NCBI RefSeq assembly: GCF_016900045.1
Contig: NZ_JACSNP010000004.1
Span: 62,001 to 126,000, forward strand
DNA: 64,000 nt
Reading direction: 5' to 3'
DNA from: Fusobacterium mortiferum
Lineage (GTDB): Bacteria > Fusobacteriota > Fusobacteriia > Fusobacteriales > Fusobacteriaceae
Below the pieces are notes generated by a model. The model did not search any database and had not been told where the DNA came from. It worked only from the letters and a program-made list of their open reading frames with translations. Made by a program: the position numbers and the translations under genes. Position 1 is the stretch's first letter. Each line of letters starts with the position of its first letter. This document shows positions 3,243 through 21,240 of the stretch, one piece after another.

Positions 3243-4664
3243 ATGGAAAAATTTAGATTAGAGAGCGATTCAATTGGTACTTTAGAAGTTCCTGCTGGAG
3301 CTTACTATGGAGTACAATCTTTAAGAGGAAAAAATAATTTTCATATTACAGGATATACACTTAGTGATACATTTATTACAGCCCTTGCCTATGTAAAAAA
3401 AGCTACTTCAAGAGCTAACTATGAAGCTGGGGTAATCTCTAAAGAAGTGGAAGAGGCTATGATACAAGCTGCTGATGAGATTATAGCTGGAAAATTTAGA
3501 GACCAATTCATAACTGATGTTATACAGGGTGGAGCTGGAACATCTATGAATATGAACATGAATGAGGTTATTGCCAATAGAGCAAATGAGATTTTAGGTG
3601 GAGAGCTTGGAAAATATGATAGATGCCACCCAAATGACCATGTTAACTATGGACAATCTACTAATGACGTTGTACCTACTGCTGGAAAGCTTACAGTTCA
3701 ACTCCTTATAAAAGACCTACTTACAGATTTACAATATCTTTATGATACTTTACAAGCTAAGGGAGAGGAATTTGACCATGTCATAAAAATGGGTAGAACA
3801 CACCTTCAAGATGCTGTACCTATTAGACTAGGACAGGAGTTTAGAGCCTTTTCTCAACCTGTGCTTAGAGATATAAAAAGAATCTCTTCTGCCGTTGAAG
3901 AGTTAACATATGTAAATATGGGGGCTACTGCTGTGGGAACTGGTATTAACGCTGATGTAGAGTATGTAAAAAATGTTGTAAGAATACTTTCAGAGGTTAC
4001 TGGTTTTGAATTTAAACAATCTTCTGACCTTGTAGATGGAACTAGAAACCTAGATAGCTTTGTATGGTTGTCTTCAGCTTTAAAAACTTGTGCTGTAAAC
4101 CTTTCTAAAACAGCTAATGATATAAGACTTATGGCTTCTGGTCCTAAAGCTGGTCTAGCGGAAATTCTACTTCCTCAACAACAACCAGGTTCATCTATTA
4201 TGCCAGGAAAAGTAAATCCAGTTATCCCAGAGGTATTAAACCAAGTTTGTTTCCAAATATTTGGTAACGATATAACTATTACAAAGGCTGCTGAAGCTGG
4301 ACAACTAGAACTAAATGTTTTTGAACCAGTTCTATTTTTTAACCTATTCCAATCAATAGAGATTCTTAAAAACGGAATTGTTACTTTTATAGAAAATTGC
4401 TTGAAAGGAATCACTGCTCAAGAGGAAAACTGTAAATATTGGGTAGATAGAAGCGTTGGAATAATTACTGCCCTAAATCCTCATATAGGATATAAAAATG
4501 CTGCTGATATAGCTAAGGAATCTATCAGAACTGGTATTCCTGTAGCTCAAATAGTCCTACAAAGAGGATTACTTTCTAAAGAAGAGTTAGATATCATATT
4601 AAATCCATTTGAGATGACTAAACCTGGTATCCCTGGGAAAGCTTTATTAAAGAAAAAAAGATAG
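3243..4664 (+). CDS. aspA: Aspartate ammonia-lyase
   Basis: Deaminates L-aspartate reversibly to fumarate and ammonia; in amino-acid-fermenting anaerobes fumarate then serves as electron acceptor. The 473-residue product belongs to the fumarase/aspartase superfamily. Its signature GSSIMPGKVN starts at residue 316, with the catalytic-loop Ser318. Earlier superfamily motifs are GAGTSMNMNMNEV and GRTHLQDAVP. The distinction from class II fumarase rests on overall wording such as the GTSMNMN block and the genomic pairing with asparaginase. The start is ATG 3243, six bases after GGAGGA at 3231-3236. The gene ends at the hairpin at 4682-4730, so it is probably monocistronic from its own promoter. 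Confidence 0.93.
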   Translation: MEKFRLESDSIGTLEVPAGAYYGVQSLRGKNNFHITGYTLSDTFITALAYVKKATSRANYEAGVISKEVEEAMIQAADEIIAGKFRDQFITDVIQGGAGTSMNMNMNEVIANRANEILGGELGKYDRCHPNDHVNYGQSTNDVVPTAGKLTVQLLIKDLLTDLQYLYDTLQAKGEEFDHVIKMGRTHLQDAVPIRLGQEFRAFSQPVLRDIKRISSAVEELTYVNMGATAVGTGINADVEYVKNVVRILSEVTGFEFKQSSDLVDGTRNLDSFVWLSSALKTCAVNLSKTANDIRLMASGPKAGLAEILLPQQQPGSSIMPGKVNPVIPEVLNQVCFQIFGNDITITKAAEAGQLELNVFEPVLFFNLFQSIEILKNGIVTFIENCLKGITAQEENCKYWVDRSVGIITALNPHIGYKNAADIAKESIRTGIPVAQIVLQRGLLSKEELDIILNPFEMTKPGIPGKALLKKKR

Positions 4665-4681
4665 TTTCATTGTAACAAAAT

Positions 4682-4730
4682 GGGGCTGTTGCAAATTAAT
4701 GATTAAAAATCATCAATTTGCAACAGTCCC
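4682..4730 (+). terminator. Long hairpin after aspA, terminator or palindromic element remnant
   Basis: Arms 4682-4703 and 4709-4730 form a 22-base stem (one G:T, one A:C) with loop TAAAA. The stem begins GGGGCTGTTGCAAA. The T tract that follows is interrupted (TTAGTTTCTTTT). It can serve as the aspA terminator, but the GGnnCTGTTGCAAA wording also resembles the ends of IS6-family elements, and it sits on the left border of the defence island. Confidence 0.6.
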
Positions 4731-4731
4731 T

Positions 4732-5017
4732 TAGTTTCTTTTATTTAAATATTTTTAAGGCACATTCTTATAAGTTGTATTCTATCAATTAAAATAATAT
4801 TTTACCTTAGTCTAATTTTTATTATAAATTCTTTCTCCTCATCAAACTTTTAATAAAGAAAGTCTATTCTCACATAATACTTTTATTATCTTTGTAATTA
4901 TTCTTTTTTTTATAATTTTACAATTTGAAGATAATTATCTTGTAATCTATTCATTCTAAAAATAAAATATACCTTATAAAAATTTAAAAGTTTTTGCTTC
5001 AGACTTTTATACTTTTT
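4732..5017. other. AT-rich intergenic spacer between aspA and the island
   Basis: No gene seen. Near its right end a short stem AAAAGT / ACTTTT (4986-4991 with 5003-5008) lies just beyond the stop codon of the minus-strand 1202-aa gene and could be its weak terminator. Confidence 0.4.
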
Positions 5018-8000
5018 CTATTTTAATTCTTCTAAAAATTTTTCAAATTCTCCTAATACCACATATTTAATATCACTCTCAAATAGTGGATTTTTAAGAA
5101 AAATATTGTTTGTATAAGTTAAAAAAATAGGAATAATATTAATATCTTTTTTAAAATTATATTTTTTATTGCTGATAATAGTAGATATATTTTCTTTCAA
5201 ATATTTTTGTCTTTTTAAAAGTTGGTCTATATAAGAAAATTTACTTTTACTAGACTTTTTATAAAAGATTTTAGTCATAGTATTTTTTAAATCTTTAGTA
5301 CAAAAATCTTGTGTTATGTACTTACACTCAATATTTAAAACTAAATTTCTATCAGGAGAAAATACTAAAACATCAAAATCTCCTCCAATTTCTTCAACCA
5401 AAGGATGATTTCCATCTTTATCAAATTTTCTTAGATCAACTTCTCTTTCAACTATAGAAAATCCTTTAATTTTAAGTATTTCAACTACTTTATCAACTAA
5501 TTTTTTTTGAAAAAGTTCAGCAAGATTATCAACTGTATTTTGTATTTCTTGATATTCATTTCTATATGGTAATTTTCCATTTAAAATATGTCGAAAAAAT
5601 ACATGCATTGTTCTTTCACAACTCTCTCTAGAGAAATAATAAAATTCTCTTACTTTAATCAATGGCTTTATTGTCAAACGATAAGGTCTTTTATTAATTT
5701 CATCATAAGGTATAAATCCTTTTTCTTTTAGCTTATTATTTTCTAAAATACTTCCTAATTTTGAGGAATCAAGTAACATAAAGTCTATAATCTTCTCAAC
5801 TTCTTCTGTTTCATTTTCTTTTAAAATTTTAATTAATTCATTTTTTGTTACCATAATAACTTTTTCTAAAGAAGAATCATAGTTTTTTAAAATATCTAAT
5901 TTATTCAAAAAAGTTGTAAAGGTAAAATAATATTTTTCAAGGAATATTTGATTCAACTTTGAAAAAAATTCTTCTTTTTCTTCTTTTGAAAGGAGAAATT
6001 CAATATCATTTCCTTCATAAATAGAATTAATTATATATTTCTGCCAATCAAGTATTTTTTTCTCCATTGGATTTATAGCAGAAAGTAAATAATTATTTTT
6101 TATATTTAGTATAATATCTGTATCTATCTCATAATATATCATTTCTATTAAATAATAAACTTCTAAGATTTTTTGTCCAAAAGCATATAAATAATATAAA
6201 TCATCTAAAGTAATCTTTTTATCTCCATAAATATTTTTATATAATATATTTTCTAAAAGAAAAGTTAAAACTTTATAACTTTCTATATATTCTTGTTCTT
6301 TTTTCAAATAATAATCTGTAGTTTTGTAATAAATATTATTTTGATAAATTTCTTTATTAACTTTATTAGCAAAAAATATATCATCAAGGATTTCAAGTAT
6401 ACTTTTTACTATACTTACATCATATTTAACTAAAATTTCAAATAATTTTTGATTTAGCAATGTTCTAATATTTTGTAATACTTCTAGACTACTTTTACTA
6501 TCATAATTTCCAGGTAGTATTCCATTACTCTTTAATAATATAGCTATTTCTTTATTAATTTTAATAAAATATTTTTCATCAACTTCAAAACTATAATAAG
6601 GATTTCTATTTGGAATAACACTTCTAATCTGTGTTAATTTAAATTCGCTTTGTTGTTTCCAAAAATCTCTAACCTTATTTGAAAAAATGTTTTTAGTTTT
6701 TATAAAATTTAAACTTTTAAGTATTTCTATAAAAAGTTCAAGCTCTAATTTTTTAGTAAAATCTTTTATAAATTCATTTTTAGCTTTTTCAATATCTATA
6801 ATAACTCGAACTAAACTTTTATTTTTATCACTTAAAGTACTAATTCTAAAAATTTCTACTGGCTTCAATTGTTTTAATGATAAAAATTCTTCTTTTTCTA
6901 AAAGTTGAATAGGTAGAAGTTTTATAAAAATATTTTTGGATTCTAAAAAATATTCTTCCTTAATTAATAAATATCTAAAATCAATAAAATATTTTTCTAT
7001 CATTGAACTTATATCATTAATGAAGAACTTATTATCATTCCAAATTTCTCCAGAAAAATGAGCTTTAAGGATGTTTATACAAACTAAACTATTTTTTAAT
7101 TTTACATATTTAGAAAAATCCTTAGTCCTAAAATTATAGAAATGTATTTTAGTTTTTTCTTTTGATTTTTTCCAATTACAAGGATGTCCATACCTTTTAA
7201 ACTCTAATTCCAAACATTTTTTCTTTAAACTTTCAATTCTATAGATTTCTGCACTTTGAGAATCAATAAATCCTTTTATATAGTCTTCAGCTCCTCTAAT
7301 AATTTCTCCATTGCTTAACTTAAAGGTTGAAAATAAATTTATTCTTTCAAGTGATATAAAATTATCATATTTTTGAAGAAAATCTTCATATTCTTTAATT
7401 TCGTCTAATTTTTCTATTTCATCAAAAATATAACTAAATTCAAAAAATAACAATGATTGATATAAACTATTTTCAGAGAAAAAAATAGGAATATTATCTG
7501 GAACTAATTGAAGATTTATTTTATAAAATTTAACTTTTTTTATATTATCAATCAATAAAAATTTATTATTAAAATGAGAATAAAATTTAAATTTATCTTC
7601 TAGTATTTTTTCTTTATCATTTTGTAATATCTTTTCAATTTCTAAGTTGTTTTCAATATTGGAAGTAAAGAATAAATATAATTCTTCTCCTATTATAAAT
7701 CCAAAATCATATATAAAATCTTTTTTATCGCTATTTATCAAATAAAAACAACTTTTATAGTCATCATCAAATCTATTCAATACATATAAAACTACTCCTA
7801 TTTTTATATATTTATAAAAAATATCATTTTCTAAAAGTGGTTTCTTTTTCTCTTTATAAAAATATAGTAAATTAATTATAATATCTCTTGAAAACAAAGG
7901 ATAATACTCTCCATTATACTTGCATGATAATGGACTTGGAATAGCTTGTACCCAATTTTCTTCAATATTATTTAAAGAATTTACTTTAGAAGAATTTTCA

Positions 8001-8626
8001 AAAATATTAATATCTAGCATTTCATTAGAGCAAAATTCTTTTATTTTATAAAAATTTTCTTTTAAATATTTCCAATAATCATAATTAGGAACTTCAAAAT
8101 TTCCTTTCTCAATATCCTTATTTGAATTATTTAATATAATTATTCTCAATGTCATTTCTAAATAGTTTAATATAATTTTAAAATCTATTCTAAAATTTTC
8201 CTTATTTGGAATATAACAATATAAAGCATCAAATAATGAATAATACTCATATAAATAGCTATATATTCCTTCTGAAAAAACAGAATAATTTTTTTTATCA
8301 AAGAAAAAACTAATATCTCCTTTTTCTATTTCTAAAATACAATCTTCTTCTAAATAAAAACCTAAATTTAAAAATATAGAAATAATCTCTTTACAAAACT
8401 TTTTAAATTCTTTATAAGAAGTAATTCTTTGTGTATTTTCTTCTTGTTTTTCATCTAAACTAGCTAAAACATAATTAATAATATATATTTTGTGTAAGCT
8501 TGTTCTATTGTTAGGAAACCAAGAATTAAGAATATAAATAGACAAAATTACATCTTCTCTTTTATATTTGTTATAAATATTCCTTAATTTAGTGTATACA
8601 TCTATATTTGCTACTTCACAATTCAT
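5018..8626 (-). CDS. 1202-aa protein with C-terminal PD-(D/E)XK nuclease-like domain, partner of SIR2 gene
   Basis: I do not recognise the family. Residues 1 to about 1030 are a long, mostly helical, Lys/Asn/Ile-rich region without Walker A, HD, TIR or DNA-binding motifs that I can see. Near the C-terminus there is a restriction-endonuclease-like core: GGDFDVLVF (Asp1083/Asp1085), a turn, then LNIECKY with Glu1100 and Lys1102, giving the D-x14-E-x-K pattern of PD-(D/E)XK nucleases, and Glu1078/1079 upstream. The domain ends in further strands such as NIIPIFLTY. It is the second gene of a two-gene unit: its ATG overlaps the SIR2 stop by four bases (ATGA), implying coupled translation and probably a shared complex. 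Codon usage is very AT-rich. A role in phage defence is inferred from the partner and island, not shown. The nuclease call is fair; the rest is unknown. Confidence 0.7.
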   Translation of the reverse strand: MNCEVANIDVYTKLRNIYNKYKREDVILSIYILNSWFPNNRTSLHKIYIINYVLASLDEKQEENTQRITSYKEFKKFCKEIISIFLNLGFYLEEDCILEIEKGDISFFFDKKNYSVFSEGIYSYLYEYYSLFDALYCYIPNKENFRIDFKIILNYLEMTLRIIILNNSNKDIEKGNFEVPNYDYWKYLKENFYKIKEFCSNEMLDINIFENSSKVNSLNNIEENWVQAIPSPLSCKYNGEYYPLFSRDIIINLLYFYKEKKKPLLENDIFYKYIKIGVVLYVLNRFDDDYKSCFYLINSDKKDFIYDFGFIIGEELYLFFTSNIENNLEIEKILQNDKEKILEDKFKFYSHFNNKFLLIDNIKKVKFYKINLQLVPDNIPIFFSENSLYQSLLFFEFSYIFDEIEKLDEIKEYEDFLQKYDNFISLERINLFSTFKLSNGEIIRGAEDYIKGFIDSQSAEIYRIESLKKKCLELEFKRYGHPCNWKKSKEKTKIHFYNFRTKDFSKYVKLKNSLVCINILKAHFSGEIWNDNKFFINDISSMIEKYFIDFRYLLIKEEYFLESKNIFIKLLPIQLLEKEEFLSLKQLKPVEIFRISTLSDKNKSLVRVIIDIEKAKNEFIKDFTKKLELELFIEILKSLNFIKTKNIFSNKVRDFWKQQSEFKLTQIRSVIPNRNPYYSFEVDEKYFIKINKEIAILLKSNGILPGNYDSKSSLEVLQNIRTLLNQKLFEILVKYDVSIVKSILEILDDIFFANKVNKEIYQNNIYYKTTDYYLKKEQEYIESYKVLTFLLENILYKNIYGDKKITLDDLYYLYAFGQKILEVYYLIEMIYYEIDTDIILNIKNNYLLSAINPMEKKILDWQKYIINSIYEGNDIEFLLSKEEKEEFFSKLNQIFLEKYYFTFTTFLNKLDILKNYDSSLEKVIMVTKNELIKILKENETEEVEKIIDFMLLDSSKLGSILENNKLKEKGFIPYDEINKRPYRLTIKPLIKVREFYYFSRESCERTMHVFFRHILNGKLPYRNEYQEIQNTVDNLAELFQKKLVDKVVEILKIKGFSIVEREVDLRKFDKDGNHPLVEEIGGDFDVLVFSPDRNLVLNIECKYITQDFCTKDLKNTMTKIFYKKSSKSKFSYIDQLLKRQKYLKENISTIISNKKYNFKKDINIIPIFLTYTNNIFLKNPLFESDIKYVVLGEFEKFLEELK

Positions 8627-11424
8627 TTTTCCACCTCAGTATCAAACATTGTCTTTAAATATCCTTTTAAAATTGTATTATTTGTACTTGAATATAAATA
8701 CTTGTAAAGCATATTCATAAAACTTTTATTATTTTTTCCATTAGCTATAATTTGTTGTACTCCATACTCTGTAAAATTATTTAAATCTTTAATTGAAAAG
8801 TTACTATAATCAAAGTTTTCTCTATCTATATAATAGTTCCATTCTGTTTCTAACTCATATTTTTTTAAATATTTTTTAAAATTTTCATTATTATAATTTT
8901 TTAATTTATCTTTTATCTCATCAGAAAATTTATTACATTCAATTAATGAACATAATAAGTAAATGAAATTTTCATTAATTTCTCTTGTATTTTCTAAAGC
9001 TAGGATAATATTTTCTTCTAATTTTATATTAGATTCTATATAGTTAAATCTTAGTAATTCAAAATAAATTTTTAGATTAAAATCTTCATTTAATTCTTTT
9101 AATAATAGATTAACTTCTTTTTGCTTAATTTCCTCATTAAATAATCTTAAAAAGTATATCTTTAAAAATATATCATTTTTTGAAAAATAAGTTTTCAGTG
9201 CTTTTGTCAATCTTATTTTTGAAGAAACTTTTATCGAATAATAATAAGTAAGCATTCCCATAACATAATTACTAGACTTCTTCCTATTTTTTATTATAAT
9301 ACTAAAGATTTTTTTTAACATATTATCAGTAACAAATTCTATATTTTTATCAAGAATAGCTATAAAATAATTTTGTAATTCCTTATAAATATTGTCATTA
9401 TAAAAAACATCGAATTTTTCACTCTGAAATACAATATTAAAAAAATTATCAAACTGTTTTTGAGTTAACTTATGTCTATGTATTAAAAGAAAAATATTTT
9501 CTAATATCATTTTAAATTTATTAAAATGTATTTGTTCAGGTTTAAATAAACTCAATAAATTTTTTAAAGTAATTAAAAGTTTATTAAAATCTTCAATATC
9601 TGTTTCTAACTCATTTATATTATATTCCATTATTAAATTTTTTAAATCTTTTGTTGAAATCTCTAGCATGATAAAATAATCAAAATACTCAAATTTTTCA
9701 TATGTTAATATTTCTCCTATAGAAAAATTTCTTTTATCTTTATTATTTTTATATAAAATAAAAAGTATTTCTATATAATTTTTTAGTATATTATGAGTCT
9801 CTAAAAAATTATTTGGAATACCATTGTAAAGAATAAACTTGTAAAAATCTCTGACTATAAAGCTTGCTTTAACTAGAGGTGAATTTCCAAAAAAAGAACT
9901 GTTTTTACTATTTTTTACATTTTCTAAAGTTTTATACATTTCATTCCTACATTTTTCTAATGTCTTGAAATTGTTAATTTCATAATATAAATTTGTTTTT
10001 CTCTTAAAGTACTTATCATATATCTTCTCTAAATTTATTTTCTTTTTTACCTCTTCAAAAAAGAAAAATTTTGGATCAATTCTTTCTAAGTTCTCTAAAA
10101 GGAAATATGTCCATACAATTTTTATTTTATTGTTATCTTTTTGATATTCTTTTAATTTGCTTCTTAATACTTCACCAGCTAAATTATATTCCTCAAAGAA
10201 AATATATCCACTAACTATTAAATTTTCTTTAGCAATATCATTATTTTCCTCTATAAATTTAATAAATCTTTTTCTATCAAAGGTTAAAATGCAATCAAGT
10301 AAAAACTCTAATTTTTCTTGTTTTTTATTAAGATTTTCCATTTTATTAAAGTCTTTCAGTGTATTAATAGAAGAATCTTCATTAAATTGTATAATATTTG
10401 ATTTTATTAATATTTCTATATATTTATTCAACTCCATTATATCTAAACAATTTTCTTTATCAAAAGAAGCAATTTTTTTATTTGATAATATTTTATCCGT
10501 ATTAAATTCCACAATATTTAAATTTTTAATTAAAGCTTTTAAATTTGCTTCTGTTAAATAATCTAAATTAGAATAAATTAAACTATTTTCTTCTTCCAAT
10601 TTTTCTTCTCTTTTTTTATATAAATCTTCTAGAAAATCTGTTAGTAATTTTCCTTTATTCTCCAATAACTTCTCTTCTGAAATTCCTAAATATTCTTTTT
10701 TTTCTAAATTTGGTAAAATTATTTTATTAATAATCTTTTCATCTTTTAAACTACTTACTTTATCATTAGATTTAAAATCAACTAAGTAAACTTTTCTAAA
10801 ATCTTCTTTTAAAATTTTTCTTATCCAAGATAACATATTTTTTACATTAGGGTCATTTAATGAATACCCAATAAATAAAATAGTATTCGTTGTAAAAAGT
10901 CCTTTTATAAATGTTGAAATTAAAGGAAATTTCTTTGTATATTCCTTAAAATCACTTCTTTTTAATATAATATTTTTATTTTTTAAATCTCCATGCATTT
11001 TTATAATCATTTTATTTCTAGAAGAATGTGCTAAATCTTCATCTTTTTTTATAACATCATATTCATAACTTTTATTTAATTTTTTTTCTATCAAGGTATC
11101 AAAATTTGTAGTAATTATATAGTTTATTTCCAATTTCTCTAATATTTCATGAATAGAATTAGGAGAAAATTCTTTATTAAAAATTTTATCAAGGATATCA
11201 TAGAAAGGAACTTTACCAAAAATCTTATAATATTCTTCTGGAATATCAAGTATTTCATCATCAGATAGCTTTCCTTCTTTTAGTTTTAATTCTTTTGCAA
11301 AAGCTTGTATTAAAGTATTCCAACTAGGTAAATTACTATCTATTGAAGCTCCTGCCCCAACAAAGATAACTAATTTCTCTTTTAATAATTCCTCTGCTAA
11401 AAAATCTATATATAAATCATTCAT
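8623..11424 (-). CDS. SIR2-family NAD-hydrolase-like defence protein (933 aa)
   Basis: An N-terminal SIR2_2-type domain occupies roughly residues 8-260. Its NAD-binding and catalytic motifs are complete: FVGAGAS (21-27), TTNFDT (105-110), KMHGDL (142-147, candidate catalytic His144) and FIGYSLNDPNV (184-194). In defence proteins (Thoeris ThsA, DSR1/2, SIR2-HerA, short-pAgo SIR2) such domains degrade NAD+ once phage is sensed. The remaining ~670 residues are predicted by eye to be helical repeats, the typical place for sensing or oligomerisation. AAAGGAG lies seven bases before the ATG at 11424. It is the first gene of the pair with the PD-(D/E)XK protein. It is shorter than DSR2-type single-gene proteins (about 1000 aa) and lacks an adjacent HerA ATPase, so I cannot place it in a named system. 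Confidence 0.85.
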   Translation of the reverse strand: MNDLYIDFLAEELLKEKLVIFVGAGASIDSNLPSWNTLIQAFAKELKLKEGKLSDDEILDIPEEYYKIFGKVPFYDILDKIFNKEFSPNSIHEILEKLEINYIITTNFDTLIEKKLNKSYEYDVIKKDEDLAHSSRNKMIIKMHGDLKNKNIILKRSDFKEYTKKFPLISTFIKGLFTTNTILFIGYSLNDPNVKNMLSWIRKILKEDFRKVYLVDFKSNDKVSSLKDEKIINKIILPNLEKKEYLGISEEKLLENKGKLLTDFLEDLYKKREEKLEEENSLIYSNLDYLTEANLKALIKNLNIVEFNTDKILSNKKIASFDKENCLDIMELNKYIEILIKSNIIQFNEDSSINTLKDFNKMENLNKKQEKLEFLLDCILTFDRKRFIKFIEENNDIAKENLIVSGYIFFEEYNLAGEVLRSKLKEYQKDNNKIKIVWTYFLLENLERIDPKFFFFEEVKKKINLEKIYDKYFKRKTNLYYEINNFKTLEKCRNEMYKTLENVKNSKNSSFFGNSPLVKASFIVRDFYKFILYNGIPNNFLETHNILKNYIEILFILYKNNKDKRNFSIGEILTYEKFEYFDYFIMLEISTKDLKNLIMEYNINELETDIEDFNKLLITLKNLLSLFKPEQIHFNKFKMILENIFLLIHRHKLTQKQFDNFFNIVFQSEKFDVFYNDNIYKELQNYFIAILDKNIEFVTDNMLKKIFSIIIKNRKKSSNYVMGMLTYYYSIKVSSKIRLTKALKTYFSKNDIFLKIYFLRLFNEEIKQKEVNLLLKELNEDFNLKIYFELLRFNYIESNIKLEENIILALENTREINENFIYLLCSLIECNKFSDEIKDKLKNYNNENFKKYLKKYELETEWNYYIDRENFDYSNFSIKDLNNFTEYGVQQIIANGKNNKSFMNMLYKYLYSSTNNTILKGYLKTMFDTEVEK

Positions 11425-11442
11425 AATTGAACTCCTTTAGAT

Positions 11443-11473
11443 ATAAAGCTTGTCTTTTGTAGACAAGCTTTAT
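11443..11473 (-). terminator. Perfect 13-bp hairpin between the type ISP gene and the SIR2 gene
   Basis: Arms ATAAAGCTTGTCT (11443-11455) and AGACAAGCTTTAT (11461-11473) pair fully around a five-base loop, ten bases past the type ISP stop. The T tract is short (TTTATAT). It separates the restriction gene from the SIR2 pair, whose own promoter would have to lie in the roughly 20 bases before the SIR2 ribosome site or rely on readthrough. Confidence 0.65.
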
Positions 11474-11484
11474 TTAATAATTAT

Positions 11485-14400
11485 TTAAAACTCAACTTTA
11501 GGCAACTCCTTAACTAGCTCATTAGTTTTCAATGAAAGAGTTATTATACTTAATAAAAGATTTAAAATATATTTAGAGTCATTATGCTCATCACACCAAA
11601 GGTTAGGGTCATTTGTAATACCACTATCTTTATTTGTTGTTACAGCATATCTTTCCATTATCCATTCAATAGCACTCTTTCCATTAACTTGGTAATCATA
11701 AGCTTCTAAAGGAATATTTTTTATAGTTATACTGCTGTTATAAATTATAGTATCTTTTACTCCTTTTTTTATGAAACTCATTTTTTCAACTCTATAATTT
11801 CCTAATTCTTCTCCTTCAACTATAATTCCTTCAGGTCTTTCAAGAGTTTCATAGTTTAGATGAAGTTCTGCTAATTCTCTTCCTATATCAGAATACTTTT
11901 TAAAATCTTGGTATTCGTCAACTAAAGGTAATTTCGGTACAGTTTTCTTTAAATCTGCTTCAAATTCTTTTCTATAATCTTGATTATGTAAGAATCCATA
12001 GACATAATAGAAAATATCCTCTTTAGTTATTCTTGGTACTCCATATTTTTCCCTAGATAAATTATAGATAAAATCTGTTATTCCATCTTGTTTATTTTCT
12101 TTAGAAGTAAATAAAGTACTATTTGAACTTTCTTCACTATAATATAAAGGATAAAAATTCGCATTTTGAAAAGTTTGAATATCTCCAATTTCTTTTAAAA
12201 TAAGAGAAGAAAAATTATGTTTTCCTCCAATTCCTATTGTTCCAATTGATAAATATTTTTCAAATTTTCTTTGTTGCGAAGGAATTTCTATCCATAATTT
12301 ATTAAAATATAAATTTTGTTTTGTAAAAGGTCTATACATTGATAGAGCAATATCTTTTGCTTCATAAATATCTTTTACTTGTTTTTTCAAAGAATTTTTT
12401 AACGCTCTTGACCAACTAATATTATTAGGATTAGTATCTATAATATCTTCTGTATCAATATTTTCATCTTTTTTTCTAACCTTTTCTATCTTATCAATCT
12501 GAGTATTGTAGAATTTTATAGTATCTCTCATCTGTTTTTCTAATTGTCCTTTTGAATAAGAATACACCCATGTATCTCTATTAGTTACTACTCCGTTAGA
12601 TGAAATATTGAAGAAAGTATTTTTATTATTTTTATTATCTTTATCAATTAAAGGAATAAAAGTATCAAACTTTTCATTTCTTTGATTAATCCAATCTCCA
12701 TCTTGATTAGGAGTTAATATTGTCCAATCTATATTTTTTACTGATTTAAAATTAGAGATTATTTTTAATTTTTCTTCTCTTGTTAAATAATCGCCTATAT
12801 CATGATAGTAAATAGAAGCTTTTTCTTTCTTAATATTAGGATTTTTTATTAAAAATGTTATTGCGATTGGAGTTCTTGAGCCACTACCAAATATTTTTCC
12901 ACCTTCTTTTCTTGAAAGTTCTCCTGAAGTTCTTTGATTTCCTCTTAAATTAAATACATAAATTGAAGTAAATTCTTTTTCAATAACTTTTCTAAATCCT
13001 GAAGTAGAACCACCATCAATCCAAGCTCCATTTGTTACAAAGCCTATTATCCCACCTGTTTTATCTAATCTATCAGTTGCCCATCTAAATGCTTTAATAT
13101 ATGCATCATATAATGCTTTATTTAATCCTGCAGAAGATTCTTTTGAATATGTTTCTAATATTTTATTATCTAATTTAGGATATTTTTTATTTTGAGCATT
13201 ATCATTAGCAGAACTTTGTCCTATTGTATATGGAGGATTTCCTATTATAATTTGTAATGGTGCTTTCTTCTGTCTGTTTACTCTTTCAGAGTTTTCTTTA
13301 AAAGCTAAGTCAAACATTTGAATCTCATCATCATCTTCACTTAATTGGAAAGTATCTGTTAAACAAATTCCTCCAAATTCTTTATAACCAACCTCTCCAA
13401 TAGAATTTTCCTTTTCTAAATCATGATACACATTCTCTATATTTACAGTTGCTATGTAGTAAGCTAAAAGAACTAACTCATTAGCATAGATTTCATACTT
13501 ATACTTTCTTTCTAAATCTTTATTTTTGATTATTCTGCTTTGTAAAAGTCTTGAGATAAAAGTTCCTGTTCCTGTAAATGGGTCTAAAATATTAACATTT
13601 TCATCACTTAAACTTCTTCCAAACTCTTTATTTAAAAGCTCCTCTACTGAATTAATAATAAAATCAACCACCTCAACAGGAGTATACACTATTCCCAATT
13701 TGTCTACTAATTTAGGAAAAGCTGTTTTAAAGAACTTGTCATATAACTCAACTATAATTCTTTGTTTTCCTTCAGCGTTATCAATATTTCCTATTTTAAG
13801 TTTAACATCTTCATAGAATTTATTTAATTCTTCAGTTTCCTTTTCTATTTGCCCTTGTAATAATAAATCTAAAATATCTTGCATAGAATGAGATATAGGA
13901 TTATTCTTAACAAATGAATACCCCTCAAATAAAGCTTCAAATATAGGTCTTGTTATTATATGTTGAGATAACATCTCTATTCCTTGCTCTTCATCAATAT
14001 CAGGACTAATATTTTTTTGTAATCCTTCTATAAATTTGTTGAAAGCCTTTCTATATTCCTTATCTCTAGCAATTAAATCTCTTATTTTATCAATTTGAAT
14101 CTCTGCTATTCTAGCGACATCTTTAGCCCAACGTTCAAAGTATTTTCTATCTCCAACTTTTTCAACCATCTTAGCGTATATAGCATTTTGTAATTTATCT
14201 ACGTCCATACTAAGACTCATTTGTCTTTCGTTTATTTCAAATTTATCCCCTTTATATCTTCTTTCTTTTCCTGTGTTATCTACTGTCCCTATTAAGATAT
14301 TTTTAGGTTTTCTTTTATTTAAATCTATTTTATTAATTTCAGCATTAAATCTATCGTCATGAGCTCTCAAAGCATTTAATACACTCCAAACTACTTTATA

Positions 14401-16290
14401 TGTTTCATTATCATTTAGAGCTTCTTCAGGTTTTTTATCTGCTGGAATAACAACAGGAATTATTATATATCCATATTTTTTTCCTTCTGCTCTTCTCATA
14501 ACTCTACCAACAGATTGAACTACATCTACTTGTGAGTTTTTAGCTGATAAAAATAGTACTGCGTCAAGTGTAGGAACATCTACTCCTTCACTAAGACATC
14601 TAGCATTAGTAAGAATTTTACACTCTCTTTCATTCTCACTATCCTGTTTCAACCAAGATAATAGATTTTCTCTTTCAAGAGCATTCATTCCCCCATCAAT
14701 ATGCTTAGAGGAAACTTCAACCATCTTTTCCTGTACTTCTTCTTTTAATGAAGATATATAAGTATTTGAAAACTCATTTAAATCACTTGTAATCTTTTTA
14801 GATGTTTTTATATCTCTACAAAAAGCAACTGCTCTCTTCATTGGGTCAGGGTCAGAAGCTTTTACTATCCCCTCTTTATCAAGAATTTGTTTAGATAATC
14901 CATTAATACACCCCATTAGTTTAGAAGCATCATCTATCTTAAATTCAACTTCTTCATTAGAAATTAAAGCTTGTATCTCTCTAGGAACTTGACTATGATT
15001 TAATGTCAAAATTAAAACTTTATAATCTGTTAATAATCCTCTTTGAACAGCTTCTCCAAATCCAATTCTGTATATTTCATCTCCATAGATTCCTCTATCG
15101 TCCATAGAACATAGATAAGCATTATTTTCTTTAGCTTTAGATTTTGAGTTATCATCATAAAGTCTTGGTGTAGCTGTCATATAGAGTCTTTTCTTAGCTT
15201 TTATAAACTCATTATCATGAACTTTTATAAAATTACTTTCCTCTTCATCAGCAAGAGCTACTCCCGTTGTTCTATGTGCTTCATCACAAACTATTAAATC
15301 AAAGACACCAAAAGTAGAATCTTTAGCTAATATTTCCTGTTGAGCCTTAAAAATTACATCTATTGATTGATAAGTTGAAAAAACAACTTTTAAACCTTCT
15401 TTAACCTTTAAAGTTTCTAATTGACTTACAATTTTATTTACATCAGTAGTGGCTGGTAAAGCTAAATCAACAACACTCATTCCTGTACTATCACTATTAG
15501 TTTTCTTAGTAATTTTTGAATCTGAACATATGCAGATAGGATATAATTTCCCTTCTATATCACTAGACCACTCTCTTAGTGTTTGTCCTAATAATGCTAT
15601 TGAAGGTACTAAAAATAAAACCAAGCCATTTCCATTAGTTTCATTTTCAGCTATCTTTAGTGAAGTAAAAGTCTTTCCTGTCCCACAAGCCATGATTAAC
15701 TTTCCTCTATTAGCATTTTTAAAATGTGAATGAACAGCTTTTAAAGCTGATTCTTGATGTTCTCTAATCTTTTTCTTCTCTTTTCTAGCTTTATTTCCTG
15801 TATTTCCTAAATATAATTTATCCCAATCTACCCCTGAATCTTCAAGAGTATTTAATGAAATTCTTACAACAGGTATCTCTTGATTTTCTATTAAATCACT
15901 AGCTTTTTTAGACCAATGGTTGGTTGTAGAAACGAATAATCTACTTGAAAATTTTACCTTTATTCCATCAACTTCAAAAAGTTTAGCCGAAGTAGAAATA
16001 AATGTATCTACATCTGCTTTATCTATATGTTTATCTGAACTATAAAATTTACATTGTACAGCTTGATATTCATTCTTATCTGTCAAAATAACCAAATCTA
16101 TTCCACTATCACTTCCACCAAATTGATTTCTGTATGGAAATTCATTCCATAACCATATTTCTTTAATATCATCACAATATAGTGGAGCTGATAAAAACCA
16201 ATTTTTTATTAATTCTTCAAATCTTGTCCCCTTATCTCTTAAAGAAAAGGAATCTCTTTCCATTTTTTTTAAAATATTTTCTAAGCTCAT
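11485..16290 (-). CDS. Type ISP-like restriction-modification enzyme (nuclease-helicase-methyltransferase fusion)
   Basis: The 1601-residue length and domain order match single-polypeptide type ISP enzymes such as LlaGI/LlaBIII. An Mrr-like nuclease comes first: GGSDSGIDLV with Asp65, then QCK at 79-81. An SF2 translocase follows: Walker A ACGTGKT 201-207, DEAH 336-339, SAT-like TATPR and a late QSVGRVMRR arginine-finger motif. After a coupling region comes an N6-adenine methyltransferase: SAM site DPFTGTGTF 903-911 and catalytic NPPY 1018-1021. The last ~450 residues are the expected target-recognition part. One protein therefore both methylates one strand at its site and, when sites are unmodified, translocates and cuts. 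All catalytic motifs are intact. The start ATG at 16290 is preceded by AAAGGAG. Target sequence is unknown. Confidence 0.88.
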   Translation of the reverse strand: MSLENILKKMERDSFSLRDKGTRFEELIKNWFLSAPLYCDDIKEIWLWNEFPYRNQFGGSDSGIDLVILTDKNEYQAVQCKFYSSDKHIDKADVDTFISTSAKLFEVDGIKVKFSSRLFVSTTNHWSKKASDLIENQEIPVVRISLNTLEDSGVDWDKLYLGNTGNKARKEKKKIREHQESALKAVHSHFKNANRGKLIMACGTGKTFTSLKIAENETNGNGLVLFLVPSIALLGQTLREWSSDIEGKLYPICICSDSKITKKTNSDSTGMSVVDLALPATTDVNKIVSQLETLKVKEGLKVVFSTYQSIDVIFKAQQEILAKDSTFGVFDLIVCDEAHRTTGVALADEEESNFIKVHDNEFIKAKKRLYMTATPRLYDDNSKSKAKENNAYLCSMDDRGIYGDEIYRIGFGEAVQRGLLTDYKVLILTLNHSQVPREIQALISNEEVEFKIDDASKLMGCINGLSKQILDKEGIVKASDPDPMKRAVAFCRDIKTSKKITSDLNEFSNTYISSLKEEVQEKMVEVSSKHIDGGMNALERENLLSWLKQDSENERECKILTNARCLSEGVDVPTLDAVLFLSAKNSQVDVVQSVGRVMRRAEGKKYGYIIIPVVIPADKKPEEALNDNETYKVVWSVLNALRAHDDRFNAEINKIDLNKRKPKNILIGTVDNTGKERRYKGDKFEINERQMSLSMDVDKLQNAIYAKMVEKVGDRKYFERWAKDVARIAEIQIDKIRDLIARDKEYRKAFNKFIEGLQKNISPDIDEEQGIEMLSQHIITRPIFEALFEGYSFVKNNPISHSMQDILDLLLQGQIEKETEELNKFYEDVKLKIGNIDNAEGKQRIIVELYDKFFKTAFPKLVDKLGIVYTPVEVVDFIINSVEELLNKEFGRSLSDENVNILDPFTGTGTFISRLLQSRIIKNKDLERKYKYEIYANELVLLAYYIATVNIENVYHDLEKENSIGEVGYKEFGGICLTDTFQLSEDDDEIQMFDLAFKENSERVNRQKKAPLQIIIGNPPYTIGQSSANDNAQNKKYPKLDNKILETYSKESSAGLNKALYDAYIKAFRWATDRLDKTGGIIGFVTNGAWIDGGSTSGFRKVIEKEFTSIYVFNLRGNQRTSGELSRKEGGKIFGSGSRTPIAITFLIKNPNIKKEKASIYYHDIGDYLTREEKLKIISNFKSVKNIDWTILTPNQDGDWINQRNEKFDTFIPLIDKDNKNNKNTFFNISSNGVVTNRDTWVYSYSKGQLEKQMRDTIKFYNTQIDKIEKVRKKDENIDTEDIIDTNPNNISWSRALKNSLKKQVKDIYEAKDIALSMYRPFTKQNLYFNKLWIEIPSQQRKFEKYLSIGTIGIGGKHNFSSLILKEIGDIQTFQNANFYPLYYSEESSNSTLFTSKENKQDGITDFIYNLSREKYGVPRITKEDIFYYVYGFLHNQDYRKEFEADLKKTVPKLPLVDEYQDFKKYSDIGRELAELHLNYETLERPEGIIVEGEELGNYRVEKMSFIKKGVKDTIIYNSSITIKNIPLEAYDYQVNGKSAIEWIMERYAVTTNKDSGITNDPNLWCDEHNDSKYILNLLLSIITLSLKTNELVKELPKVEF

Positions 16291-16461
16291 ATCCTAACTC
16301 CTTTATCTTCTAAAATTCTTACTTTGTATTATAACATATATTCTTTATTAAAACTAAAAATTATTATCACAACTTTTTAAAAATTTATATAACTTTAACT
16401 TTTTACTCCTTTCCATATTAAACTCTTTGTGGTAAACTTTAACTAAAGAGGGGGATTTATT

Positions 16462-19203
16462 ATGGAAAAGAAATATGATAAATATGGTTATGATACGAAT
16501 GGATTTGATAAAAAAGGGATTCATAGACTTACAAAAACGAAATATGACTATTTTGGGTATGATGTTGATGGATTCAATATTAAAAAATTTAATAAAGATG
16601 GTATCCATAAAATAACTAAAACAAAATATGATGAAGAAGGATTTAATATTAAAGGGTATAATAAATATGGATTTGATAGAAAGGGAATACATAAAAGTAC
16701 TCATACTAAATATAATTTAGAAGGATTCGATATTGCTGGATATAATAAAAATGGATTCAATAAAGATAAACTTCATAAAGATACTCTCACAAAATATGAT
16801 TTAAACGGATTTAATTATGAAGGATATAATTCTAAAGGATACAACAAACGAGGATTTAATAAATTAGGATACCATTATCTAACTGAATCTAAATATGATG
16901 AAGAAGGATTTGATAAATATGGATACAATAAAGATGGATTTAATAGAAATGGTATTAATAAGTTTACCTTAACTAAATATGATACAGCTGGCTATGATAT
17001 TAATGGTATTGACAAACATGGAAAAACAAAAGGTGGAATAACTAATAAGAAAAAAGAAATTATTCTTCATAAAGAAAATAGCTTTAAAAATATAGAAAAA
17101 GAAAACTATGACCAAAAGAATATAGTTGAAATTACTCCTATAAGAAAAAAAGTTGTTATAGATAGATTTAAAGATATTGGAGAATTAAATTATTCATACC
17201 CTATTAACAAGAAAAATATTCTTTTTGCTTTAGAAGAGGAAGAACATATTAATAAAAGATTTTGTGAATACACTGTAACTAATATCGTACAGGAAAGTAT
17301 AGGACTCTATTCTGTTACCCTTACACAAAAAGAGGGAGAAGCACACCCTTTTAGTAGAAAAATACAGATAGATGAAGTCATGGAAGGAGGAAATATTTGG
17401 TGGGAAATCAATAACACTCCTGCTTATGCTGAAATTTTTCTAGTTTTTCCTGAAGAAGAGAAAATAGCTTTTAGATTTTTAAAAGGTCCAGCTCCAAGGG
17501 TAGGAACTGTTGTTAGAATATATTTACCAAATTACATAGAACCCCTTATTAAATGCTGGGAAAATAATTATTATGTAACTATGGTGAATACTTGGTTAAA
17601 AGATATAGAAAATTATACTCCAAATGTAACTGATTATAAAATAAATGGTTATTACAACAGTTGGCTTAGAGCTAATCAAAGAAAAGCTTTCAACCTTTTA
17701 AATATGAAGGCTGGTTTATTATGGGGTCCTCCTGGCACGGGAAAAACTACTACTATGAGTGCTATGATAGCTGAATATGTTGAGAGTAATCCACATGATA
17801 GTATTTTAATTGTAGGAAATACGAACTTGGCTGTTGATACTATATTTACAGGGTTTGATAAAATTTTAGATAAAGTTCCAAATAAAGATTTTATTAGAAA
17901 ATATTCAGTTAGGTATGGAGAAGCTTTTAACAGTAAAATGTATAAAGATAGAGAATATCTTCTCGCTAAAAATAATGATGAACATATTATGAGAGAACTT
18001 TTTATACTTGAGCAAGAAAAAGAAAAAATCCCTAATACTGATGTAGTAGCTTTAGCTAATTGGCAAGATAAATATGATAGATTAAAGAAACAATTAAAAT
18101 CAGCTTTAGAGAATGTAGTTCAAAATTATTCAGTTATTGCAATGACTTCTACTGTTGCTCTCTATAATTTTGAGCTATTACTAGACAATAAGTTTAACTT
18201 AGTAATTTTAGAAGAAGCTAGTCAAATAAATTTATGTCAAGCTCTTATGCTAACTCTTTTAGGAGAAAAAATAATATTTACAGGAGATGATAAACAACTA
18301 TCTCCAATTGTTCAAAGTAGTAATAAGGAAGCTCAAGAATATCTCGGTTATTCTATTTTTAAATATAAAACTTCCTATTTAAATGATAAAGTTTTTTTCC
18401 TAAATGAACAATCAAGAATGACAGAAAATATATGTAAAGTAGTTAGTCAAACATTTTATAATGGAGAATTAATTTTAGCCAAAAGTATTCCTAATCCTGA
18501 AAATTGGAAGAAAGAGAGAAAACTCAATAAAGATGATAAATTTAAGGGAAAAGATGTCATGGTAGTTGATATAGATGAAGATTCTAATTGGTCAAAACAA
18601 TATGGAGGAGCTATTAGATATGATTCTTGTTATGAAATAACAAAAATCTGTGAAAATCTAATAGACCACTATGATTCTAAACAAGAAGATATAAATATTT
18701 TAACTCCTTTTAGAGCTCAAAAAAATATGATTAAATCATTTTTAAAGAAAAGTCATTTACCTAGAATAAAAGTAAACACTATACATAAGAGTCAAGGTAG
18801 TGAATGTCATACAATTATTTTTGACCCTGTTGACGGAGAGAGTAAATTCTTAAGTACAAAAGAAGCTCAAAATATGATAAATGTCGCTATTAGTAGAGCC
18901 AAAGCAAGATTGATAGTATGTCTTAGTAAAAAAGATTACACTAATAAATCTCTTAATAAAATTGCTCATTTAATAGCACAACTCTCTGATACTACAAATA
19001 AAAATTTTGTTCCTCATATTAGTGAATTTATAAATAAGTCAGATTTTCCTAAAAATACTATTGGAAAAATTCTTGATTTTGAAAAATCTGGAATTTGTAA
19101 AGTTTTAAAATTTGATGAAAAGAGTATAACAGTTGCTATCCCTAATAAAGAAGCTATGACTAAAAAAATTTCTTTAGAGTTCTTATATAAAAAATATCTT
19201 TAA
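16462..19203 (+). CDS. UPF1-like SF1 helicase with N-terminal tandem-repeat array
   Basis: The C-terminal two thirds is an SF1B helicase of the UPF1/DNA2 type: Walker A GPPGTGKT 422-429, Walker B variant VILEEASQ, motif III FTGDDKQLSP, motif V NTIHKSQGSE and motif VI NVAISRAKARL. The first ~190 residues are six copies of a 28-residue unit (one of 33) built on a G(F/Y)(N/D)xx five-residue pattern and ending in KYD; see the repeat entry. Between residues 200 and 400 lies a unique region, perhaps the 1B-like or an OB domain. It starts at ATG 16462 behind GAGGGGG and is divergent from the restriction enzyme. Such helicases act in several defence systems and in RNA/DNA turnover; the target here is unknown. 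The repeats suggest a variable binding surface (inference). Confidence 0.8.
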   Translation: MEKKYDKYGYDTNGFDKKGIHRLTKTKYDYFGYDVDGFNIKKFNKDGIHKITKTKYDEEGFNIKGYNKYGFDRKGIHKSTHTKYNLEGFDIAGYNKNGFNKDKLHKDTLTKYDLNGFNYEGYNSKGYNKRGFNKLGYHYLTESKYDEEGFDKYGYNKDGFNRNGINKFTLTKYDTAGYDINGIDKHGKTKGGITNKKKEIILHKENSFKNIEKENYDQKNIVEITPIRKKVVIDRFKDIGELNYSYPINKKNILFALEEEEHINKRFCEYTVTNIVQESIGLYSVTLTQKEGEAHPFSRKIQIDEVMEGGNIWWEINNTPAYAEIFLVFPEEEKIAFRFLKGPAPRVGTVVRIYLPNYIEPLIKCWENNYYVTMVNTWLKDIENYTPNVTDYKINGYYNSWLRANQRKAFNLLNMKAGLLWGPPGTGKTTTMSAMIAEYVESNPHDSILIVGNTNLAVDTIFTGFDKILDKVPNKDFIRKYSVRYGEAFNSKMYKDREYLLAKNNDEHIMRELFILEQEKEKIPNTDVVALANWQDKYDRLKKQLKSALENVVQNYSVIAMTSTVALYNFELLLDNKFNLVILEEASQINLCQALMLTLLGEKIIFTGDDKQLSPIVQSSNKEAQEYLGYSIFKYKTSYLNDKVFFLNEQSRMTENICKVVSQTFYNGELILAKSIPNPENWKKERKLNKDDKFKGKDVMVVDIDEDSNWSKQYGGAIRYDSCYEITKICENLIDHYDSKQEDINILTPFRAQKNMIKSFLKKSHLPRIKVNTIHKSQGSECHTIIFDPVDGESKFLSTKEAQNMINVAISRAKARLIVCLSKKDYTNKSLNKIAHLIAQLSDTTNKNFVPHISEFINKSDFPKNTIGKILDFEKSGICKVLKFDEKSITVAIPNKEAMTKKISLEFLYKKYL
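16468..17025 (+). repeat. In-gene tandem repeat, 84-bp units (28 aa) encoding KYD-G(F/Y)(N/D) modules
   Basis: KYD/KYN triplets recur at residues 27, 55, 83, 111, 144 and 172 of the helicase, that is, steps of 28, 28, 28, 33 and 28 residues. Each unit reads roughly KYDxxGFDxxGYNxxGFNxxGIHxxT. The 33-residue unit holds one additional five-residue submodule, as expected if arrays grow or shrink by slippage or recombination. The DNA copies are similar but not identical. Confidence 0.85.
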
Positions 19204-19222
19204 TATACTTTGAAATAAATTT

Positions 19223-19271
19223 TTGATTCTTTCCAAGATTAATATCCACTATTATTTTTGGAAAGAATCAA
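19223..19271 (+). terminator. Terminator after the repeat-helicase
   Basis: A perfect 14-bp inverted repeat, TTGATTCTTTCCAA (19223-19236) and TTGGAAAGAATCAA (19258-19271), sits 20 bases after the helicase stop and before the convergent pseudogene. It may work in both directions. Confidence 0.7.
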
Positions 19272-19290
19272 TTTAATTATATCTTTTCTA

Positions 19291-20259
19291 TTATTTTTTA
19301 ATAGCCTCATATAGAGCAAATTCTATATCTCCATTATTTGTTTCTTCATATAAAATCTCATTTTGTTCCTGCATAGTCATCTCTCTAATATATACATCTC
19401 TTAGATTATTACTTGGTTTAATATTTTTTAATCTAAGATATCCATTTTCTTCATTAATCGTTGTAAATACAAGTGATTCCTTATCTAATTTTTGTCCAAC
19501 TAACTCTCTTGCTAATAAAGCAGTAATAAAAGTTTTTCCAAGTCCCACTACATCAGCCAAAAAAACTCCATTATATCTATCCAACATTCTCTTTGCTTGA
19601 TTTACAGCATCTGTTTGATATTTATAGTTTACAAATCCTGGAGGTAAATCTGAAGTATTTACTCCAATTTTATCTTCATTTATCTCATCTGCAAAATATT
19701 CAAATAAAAATTTTAAATAAAGTTCATAAGGAGTTATATCTTCTTTTATCCATGTATCATTTTTTAAGGTAGAAATATACTCATCATTTAAAGGTTCACT
19801 GACTTCCCACAATTTATCAAATTTTTCGAGAGCGTATTTTACATCTGATGAGTTTTTTAACTCCACATTAAATTCTAAATTACCCTTTAATCCACTATAT
19901 GAGAAATTACTTGATCCAGTTATTACTTTTCCAAAATCCTCTGATTTTTCTAAATCCTTTCTCATTATATAAACCTTGGCATGAATTTTATCATATGGAT
20001 ATACTCTTATTTCTATTTTTCCTTCTTGTATATATTGAATAAACTTTCTTACGCCTAAATCAATTTCATAAGTGTCTTCTGAATTTTCTAGTTCTTGTTT
20101 AATTGCTTTTTTAGTAAACATTTTTATTTCTTTAGTTGAAAAATAATATTTTTCTCCATCAGAACTTTTGGCGATATTATTTAATAGAGCAACTTCTTCA
20201 TCAACATTTATTCCCACTAATATTCTAATTTTCTCTACATTCTCTAATTTAATTACTCT
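19291..20259 (-). pseudogene. Remnant of a PLD-SNF2 helicase (5' truncated, internally deleted)
   Basis: The reading frame is open from 20259 (after a TAA at 20260-20262) and its first residues already resemble the inside of a phospholipase-D-like domain (KIRILVGINVDEE), so the true N-terminus is missing; a GTG at 20217 is the first plausible start left. HAKVYIM and TGSSNFSYSG are the PLD-type motifs. They lead into an SNF2 helicase beginning (YQTDAVNQA, then Walker A ADVVGLGKTF). Right after that motif the protein jumps to a typical C-terminal tail without motifs II-VI, so several hundred residues have been lost in frame. PLD-SNF2 proteins occur in defence islands. It is very unlikely to be an active helicase. 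Confidence 0.75.
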
Positions 20260-20383
20260 TTAATATTTTATCATAAAATCATTTTAAAAAAAACTTTTCA
20301 TTTTTAATTTTATTATTCATTTTTATTATACATTATTTCATCACTCTTTTTCCACCTTTCTTATCCTAACTAAATTTATTTTG

Positions 20384-20444: not shown

Positions 20445-21239
20445 ATGAGTAAAGGAGAATTAGCTCTAGAGAGCATTAGAACTACATATAGAAAGAAAAT
20501 TTGGAGTAAGTTTATAAAAGCTGTAAAGGATTTTGATTTAATAGAAGATGGAGATAGAATAGCCGTTGGAGTATCTGGTGGTAAGGATAGTCTTTTACTA
20601 TGTAAGCTATTCCAAGAATTAAAAAAGGATAGAAGTAAGAACTTTGAAGTTGCCTTTATATCTATGAATCCAGGGTTTGGTGCTATGGATATGGAGCAAT
20701 TCAAAAAAAATCTTGAAGAGTTAGATATCCCTTGTGAGATATTTGATGCTAACGTATGGGAGGTAGCATTTAGAGAGGATCCAGAGGGACCTTGTTTCCT
20801 ATGTGCTAAGATGAGAAGAGGTGTACTATACAACAAGGTAGAGGAGTTAGGTTACAATAAGTTAGCTCTTGGACACCACTTTGATGACGTAGTTGAAACT
20901 ACTATGATAAATATGTTCTATGCAGGAACTGTAAAAACAATGATACCAAAGGTTAGCTCAACAAGTGGAAAGATGTCAGTAATTAGACCTCTTGTATATA
21001 TCAAAGAGAAAGATATCATAGCATATACTCAAAGAAACGAGATATCACCTATGAGCTGTGGTTGTCCAATAGAAGCTGGAAAGGTTGATTCTAAGAGAAA
21101 GGAGATTAAAAATCTTCTAGCTGAATTGGAAAAAACTAATCCAAATGTAAAACAAAGTATATTCAACTCTATGAAAAATATAAATATAGATTATGTAATG
21201 GGATATACTAGAGGAAACAAGGTAAAAGGTGAGATGTAA
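20445..21239 (+). CDS. TtcA-like PP-loop ATPase, copy 1 (tRNA 2-thiolation family)
   Basis: N-type ATP pyrophosphatase of the TtcA/CTU1 group, whose members activate a tRNA base with ATP and exchange oxygen for sulfur (cytidine-32 in TtcA). The PP-loop VGVSGGKDS lies near residues 44-52, the CxxC pair in PCFLCAKMRRG near 116-122, and LGHHFDDVVETT follows. A further Cys pair, MSCGC, near residue 205 stands where TtcA-like proteins supply additional ligands for a 4Fe-4S cluster. At 264 residues it is shorter than E. coli TtcA (311). The ATG at 20445 follows AGGAGG closely. It is head-to-tail with a second copy; only one base separates stop and start. Whether each copy modifies a different tRNA position is unknown. 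Confidence 0.85.
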   Translation: MSKGELALESIRTTYRKKIWSKFIKAVKDFDLIEDGDRIAVGVSGGKDSLLLCKLFQELKKDRSKNFEVAFISMNPGFGAMDMEQFKKNLEELDIPCEIFDANVWEVAFREDPEGPCFLCAKMRRGVLYNKVEELGYNKLALGHHFDDVVETTMINMFYAGTVKTMIPKVSSTSGKMSVIRPLVYIKEKDIIAYTQRNEISPMSCGCPIEAGKVDSKRKEIKNLLAELEKTNPNVKQSIFNSMKNINIDYVMGYTRGNKVKGEM

Positions 21240-21240
21240 G

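Follow-up and report, generated by a model that had tools for sequence, protein, structure and literature searches.

Background

SIR2 domains are found in several described defence systems. The nearest to the SIR2 protein considered here is DSR2 (defence-associated sirtuin 2; PDB 8k98 among other structures), and work on the DSR2 family (PMC11087589) is the basis for the NADase activity, trigger and outcome proposed below. The SIR2 domain is also found in ThsA of Thoeris and in the two-gene systems SIR2-HerA (GAO_19/Nezha) and SIR2-APAZ/pAgo (SPARSA). In addition, restriction-modification (R-M) loci have been proposed to carry Sir2 and other suicide domains, which are held in check by the immune enzyme (PMC3506569). 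The papers searched describe no two-gene system made of a SIR2 protein and a PD-(D/E)XK protein. Upx is an anti-phage PD-(D/E)XK protein that forms a single-gene defence system (Gao et al. 2020), and its PADLOC and NCBIfam models are single-protein ones. No mechanism of Upx was found in the papers searched.

The locus lies in a window of 64,000 nucleotides, the whole stretch of DNA that was analysed, from Fusobacterium mortiferum (source genome 2.04 Mb in 283 contigs). An initial annotation had proposed an undescribed two-gene defence system, perhaps with two killing activities in one complex. The explanation preferred here, at a probability of roughly 0.62, is an exchangeable abortive-infection slot behind a type ISP R-M gene. 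The slot would be filled by a DSR2-like SIR2 NADase and an Upx-like nuclease that are co-transcribed and separable.

The gene pair

8623..11424, minus strand: SIR2 protein P0001, gene 1 of the pair, 933 aa; N-terminal SIR2 NADase domain and about 700 residues of Fusobacteriota-specific sequence, a putative sensor
10756..11412, minus strand: SIR2 catalytic domain of P0001, residues about 5-223, with Asn107 and His144
5018..8626, minus strand: Upx-like protein P0002, gene 2, 1202 aa; ATGA overlap with gene 1
5021..5536, minus strand: PD-(D/E)XK nuclease domain of P0002, residues about 1031-1202
5321..5374, minus strand: nuclease core D1085-x14-E1100-x-K1102 of P0002, invariant across the relatives aligned

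The initial annotation had described the SIR2 motifs of gene 1, the D-x14-ExK core of gene 2, the overlap joining them and a restriction enzyme next door, and each of these descriptions held, as did the lengths, strand and coordinates given for the two ORFs. The motifs of P0001 are GAGAS at 23, TTNFD at 105 (Asn107), MHGD at 143 (His144) and GYSLND at 186, and the Pfam model SIR2_2 matches with E=8e-26. At the junction (...gaggtggaaaaATGA), the end of P0001 and the start of P0002 share a 4-base stop/start overlap, ATGA, and a ribosome-binding-like GAGGTGG stands just before the P0002 start. As the overlap suggests, the two genes are probably co-transcribed and co-translated. A promoter scan gave no excess over shuffles.

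The DSR2-like SIR2 protein

Among proteins of solved structure, P0001 comes closest to DSR2 (E=1.5e-38 over residues 11-216) and to ThsA, and both alignments are confined to residues up to about 220. The Dsr2 model scores 87 bits over residues 5-216 only, against a cut-off of 1400 bits, so P0001 is not a full-length match. The PADLOC ThsA model likewise matches the SIR2 part (E=7e-40). A profile of the C-terminal part found no DSR2 chain and no detectable sequence relation to DSR2, and it returned no relatives from IMG/VR. The roughly 700 residues beyond about position 220 are common only to the Fusobacteriota orthologues. The catalytic Asn and His are retained in every orthologue that still has the SIR2 domain.

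P0001 is most likely DSR2-like in its action: the long C-terminal part would keep the SIR2 NADase at the N-terminus inactive, and its binding to a phage product that arises in the course of infection would release the enzyme. NAD+ would then be hydrolysed, and the infected cell would no longer support the phage.

The Upx-like second gene

By sequence, P0002 has no match in PADLOC, Pfam, NCBIfam or PDB. Its C-terminal motif GDFD-x14-ECK is conserved, with D1083, D1085, E1100 and K1102 invariant in eight of eight aligned sequences. The nuclease fold was borne out by a model of residues about 1031-1202, which reaches block-mean pLDDT values of 62-93 and shows the order alpha-beta-beta-beta-alpha-beta.

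Several comparisons point to Upx. One Enterobacterales relative of P0002 weakly matches two Upx models (NF042954, E=4e-7; another, E=2e-5). Against the curated cut-off of 1900 bits of NF042954, a Photorhabdus relative scores 27.5 bits and P0002 itself gives no match. The profile of the P0002 family aligns collinearly with Upx sequences in hhalign at 94.8% (E=4.8e-8 over 348 columns); control profiles, either reversed or unrelated, gave 0.1-0.2%. The separate model of the nuclease region has the Upx cryo-EM structure 9wuf as its best Foldseek match (E=2e-6), ahead of an R2 retrotransposon nuclease, then Shedu and, further down the ranking, McrBC. The whole-length AlphaFold model is poor (mean pLDDT 47) and was used only through its Foldseek match, the best of which was again 9wuf (E=2e-7). 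A BFVD search with the P0002 model gave no significant match. Large parts of the P0002 models are unreliable, which keeps the TM-scores low, and the claim is therefore one of remote homology, not of membership at the curated cut-off. On these sequence and model comparisons, P0002 is a distant relative of Upx. Its action is most likely Upx-like: this large PD-(D/E)XK protein would recognise and cut nucleic acid during infection.

Distribution of the two genes

Full-length members of the P0001 family are present in seven genomes. The six others are Fusobacteriota with 37-56% identity to P0001: G026 (56%), G042 (39%) and the clade G064/G068/G070/G073 (about 37%). The copy in G068 is frameshifted and adjoins a fragment of a REase of the AlwI-type clade. 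Gene 2 is absent near the SIR2 orthologue in all six. In the closest of them, G026, a T-tailed hairpin terminator lies within about 50 bases after the SIR2 gene and no partner follows downstream, so that the missing second gene is real and not due to a contig edge.

The P0002 nuclease was found in one of 98 Fusobacteriota genomes. A scan of 84,980 species genomes yielded seven loci of its family (one in Lactococcus, five in Enterobacterales, one in a UBP11 MAG), and two further relatives, on a Lactococcus plasmid and an E. coli chromosome, were found separately. Searches of IMG/VR with P0002, as single protein and as alignment, and of phage records found no relatives. Alignments to the Enterobacterales relatives span the greater part of P0002 as two blocks (E=6e-31 and 7e-15), at 24% identity. 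Where the upstream region was present for judgement, in Photorhabdus, RIT693, Klebsiella indica and E. coli, the relative stands second behind a 1248-aa gene, P0004. The E. coli and Klebsiella copies of the relative are 97% identical, and in view of such closeness the Enterobacterales copies were counted as one event. SIR2 never adjoins the Enterobacterales relatives, and P0004 is unrelated to it. Homology of the C-terminal part of P0001 to P0004 was also considered and was rejected, as the comparison showed none. The two Lactococcus relatives have no large partner and both look broken: the copy on pFI430 (L003:6042-8720) is truncated at the N-terminus beside IS981, and the Upx-like copy in L. 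garvieae (L037:7193-10688) carries a frameshift. So, on two occasions the P0002 family has become associated with a large defence-like gene, each time an unrelated one, and it has no constant partner.

A side observation concerns the P0004 family. Its members (L033:3406-7152, L038:3497-7246, L039:5212-8958 and the plasmid loci L040-L044) have about 1250 aa and an invariant N-terminal GWDG...WExG...KA..D..KR, and are often annotated as HTH regulators. The family has no match in Pfam, PADLOC or NCBIfam. P0004 occurs on 23 plasmids; inspection of five of these records showed no such nuclease annotated directly after it. An uncharacterised defence gene is a possible reading of this family.

These distributions bear on the idea of a true two-gene system, in which P0002 would sense or process phage DNA and switch on the SIR2 NADase within a complex, thus combining two killing activities. 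The genes lie on one strand, and the 4-base overlap with the adjacent GAGGTGG is what an obligate pair would be expected to have. Both also fall within a single block whose edges are common to the congener G009 (see below), and the Enterobacterales relatives again stand second behind a very large, unrelated gene, so that the gene-2 family may need a partner. This idea is nevertheless unlikely, because the pair was seen once, the SIR2 orthologues of six genomes lack gene 2 and the relatives of gene 2 lack SIR2. An obligate two-gene complex likewise finds no comparative support and is equally improbable. The shared low GC of 19-20% was considered as a sign of joint arrival and was rejected as evidence: GC stays near 20% in the SIR2 orthologues whichever gene adjoins them, and the gene-2 relatives, too, are richer in AT than the DNA around them.

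The proposal of an undescribed two-gene system thus stands in part. Both proteins are of defence type, and the pair is unnamed in PADLOC, NCBIfam and the papers searched. However, no recurrence of the pair was found in independent genomes, the SIR2 gene being paired only here among its seven genomes, and the nuclease half remotely matches a named single-gene system. Comparative evidence says that each gene is probably a separable module and not half of an obligate complex. The case shows that what looks like a two-gene system can turn out to be a one-off pairing of two known kinds.

R-M neighbours of the SIR2 gene

11485..16290, minus strand: type ISP restriction-modification enzyme, 1601 aa, full-length; upstream neighbour of P0001 on the same strand
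11444..11471, minus strand: hairpin AAAGCTTGTC-tacaaaa-GACAAGCTTT between the R-M gene and the SIR2 gene, read from the sequence
4745..4803, minus strand: 3'-end remnant of an Mrr-type gene, 93% over 59 bases against the whole gene in G009; it marks the boundary of the exchanged block on the side beyond P0002
4454..20280, no strand assigned: defence island that varies between strains; the assembly of the conspecific G196 lacks it, and its contigs end or begin at these points

The adjacency of the SIR2 gene that does recur is to R-M genes, which the initial annotation had mentioned merely as a neighbour. It is seen in four of four independent contexts. The type ISP enzyme lies upstream of P0001 in the window, and an MmeI-type R-M gene lies upstream in G026. 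A type III mod gene follows the SIR2 gene in G042 after a gap of a few bases, and an AlwI-type R-M/REase gene overlaps it downstream in G064, G070 and G073. In the type III locus of G042 (L026:4505-8495), a YhcG-like nuclease stands between mod and res, and res is split into two ORFs. The gap between the MmeI-type gene and SIR2 of G026 retains a degenerate 3' end of the same ISP enzyme gene, with in-frame stops; its 75% identity over 260 bp (E=1e-40) runs into SIR2. This remnant indicates that ISP-then-SIR2, now known from two genera, is the older order and that the R-M gene was replaced later. The constant neighbours of this SIR2 clade are thus R-M genes of four kinds.

Searches with three Pfam models for methyltransferase families returned only a few matches in each genome, and part of these are probably not R-M enzymes, which makes chance adjacency to SIR2 unlikely. 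The known tendency of defence genes to cluster is a confounder here.

One reading of this adjacency is that the SIR2 protein guards the restriction enzyme in the manner of PrrC/EcoprrI, kept idle by the R-M protein and firing once restriction is inhibited or evaded by a phage. The four contexts, the older ISP-then-SIR2 order and the proposal of suicide domains checked by an immune enzyme (PMC3506569) all fit. A single protein contact is, however, hard to square with R-M genes of four unrelated types that lie now on one side of SIR2 and now on the other, a hairpin separates the R-M gene from SIR2, and the same R-M enzyme in G009 has CBASS instead, as a cargo slot would. We regard such a guard as improbable.

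A proposed exchangeable slot in a variable island

The conspecific G196 has no copy of P0002 or of the ISP gene and lacks the window from about 4454 to 20280, which marks the island as strain-variable. In the congener G009, the ISP gene is 95% identical, and identity ends just past its stop codon (window 11480). In the window, 60 bases with the hairpin inside separate the ISP gene from SIR2; in G009, a different hairpin stands at the same place and is followed by a short type II CBASS made up of a cyclase, an E2 protein and a 4TM effector, and then by an Mrr-type nuclease, part of whose 3' end is the remnant at 4745-4803 of the window. The edges are common to both and the block between them differs: SIR2 and P0002 here, CBASS and Mrr there. 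This exchange fits the idea of checked suicide domains (PMC3506569) without proving functional coupling. With a near-identical R-M enzyme accompanied by SIR2 in one strain and by CBASS in the other, the notion of interchangeable suicide modules as a backup to restriction becomes directly testable.

Further genes were observed in and around the island. A 913-aa SF1 helicase (16462-19203, plus strand) is MkoA-like over residues 393-820 (E=2e-53), matches no assigned family in its N-terminal half and is perhaps Mokosh-like. A 308-aa PLD-helicase fragment (19291-20217, minus strand; PbeA/PLD_Helicase-like) is apparently truncated, and a stretch of 190 bases within it (19304-19493) matches the end of the ATPase gene in G009 (L063 7261-7450) at 95% identity. 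In that genome (L063:6129-17293; G009:C3), the ISP gene has a pair of AAA ATPase genes upstream and CBASS with Mrr downstream. Two TtcA-like PP-loop genes lie in tandem at the island edge (20445-21996, plus strand).

Plain clustering in a defence island, in which R-M, SIR2 and Upx-like genes would be neighbours through joint transfer and for no functional reason, is the strongest competitor, at somewhat less than even odds. The region is strain-variable, it holds other defence-like genes such as the helicase and the truncated PLD gene, and in G009 both flanks of the ISP gene have been exchanged. However, in three contexts the SIR2 gene overlaps its neighbour or is separated from it by a few bases, which indicates operons and not loose clustering. 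More speculative, and rather doubtful, is that the locus is a hybrid immune operon in which the Upx-like nuclease and the DSR2-like NADase act jointly, or that the SIR2 clade is a second-line guard beside unrelated restriction enzymes which fires when restriction fails. The exchangeable slot with separable contents remains the preferred reading.

Comparison with known systems

Like DSR2, P0001 is a single large polypeptide with an N-terminal SIR2 domain, conserved Asn and His and a long C-terminal part. No second defence-sensor gene accompanies the closest relative of P0001, that of G026, but R-M genes always adjoin the SIR2 gene. P0001 differs from DSR2, whose NADase is switched on by phage tail tube protein, in that similarity ends at residue about 220 and the score lies far below the Dsr2 cut-off. 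ThsA of Thoeris also has a SIR2 domain; in contrast, P0001 aligns over that part only, no SLOG domain was found in it, and a TIR-domain ThsB, looked for among the annotated neighbours, is absent.

In SIR2-HerA and SIR2-APAZ/pAgo, as here, a SIR2 effector is paired with a second gene, whereas P0002 matches neither the HerA ATPase nor pAgo. The initial annotation was correct that no HerA, STAND, pAgo or TIR partner is present in the adjacent genes. The likeness to PrrC/EcoprrI is one of gene adjacency, a suicide-type gene adjoining R-M genes; the SIR2 protein has an NADase-type domain and not an anticodon nuclease, and it accompanies several R-M types.

P0002 resembles Upx in its length of about 1200 aa, in the position of its C-terminal PD-(D/E)XK core, in collinearity over about 350 residues and in the best fold match of two models. 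It differs from Upx by an identity of only about 15%, by the lack of a direct model match and by its place as the second gene of a pair. As a remote homologue, P0002 adds a divergent branch to Upx.
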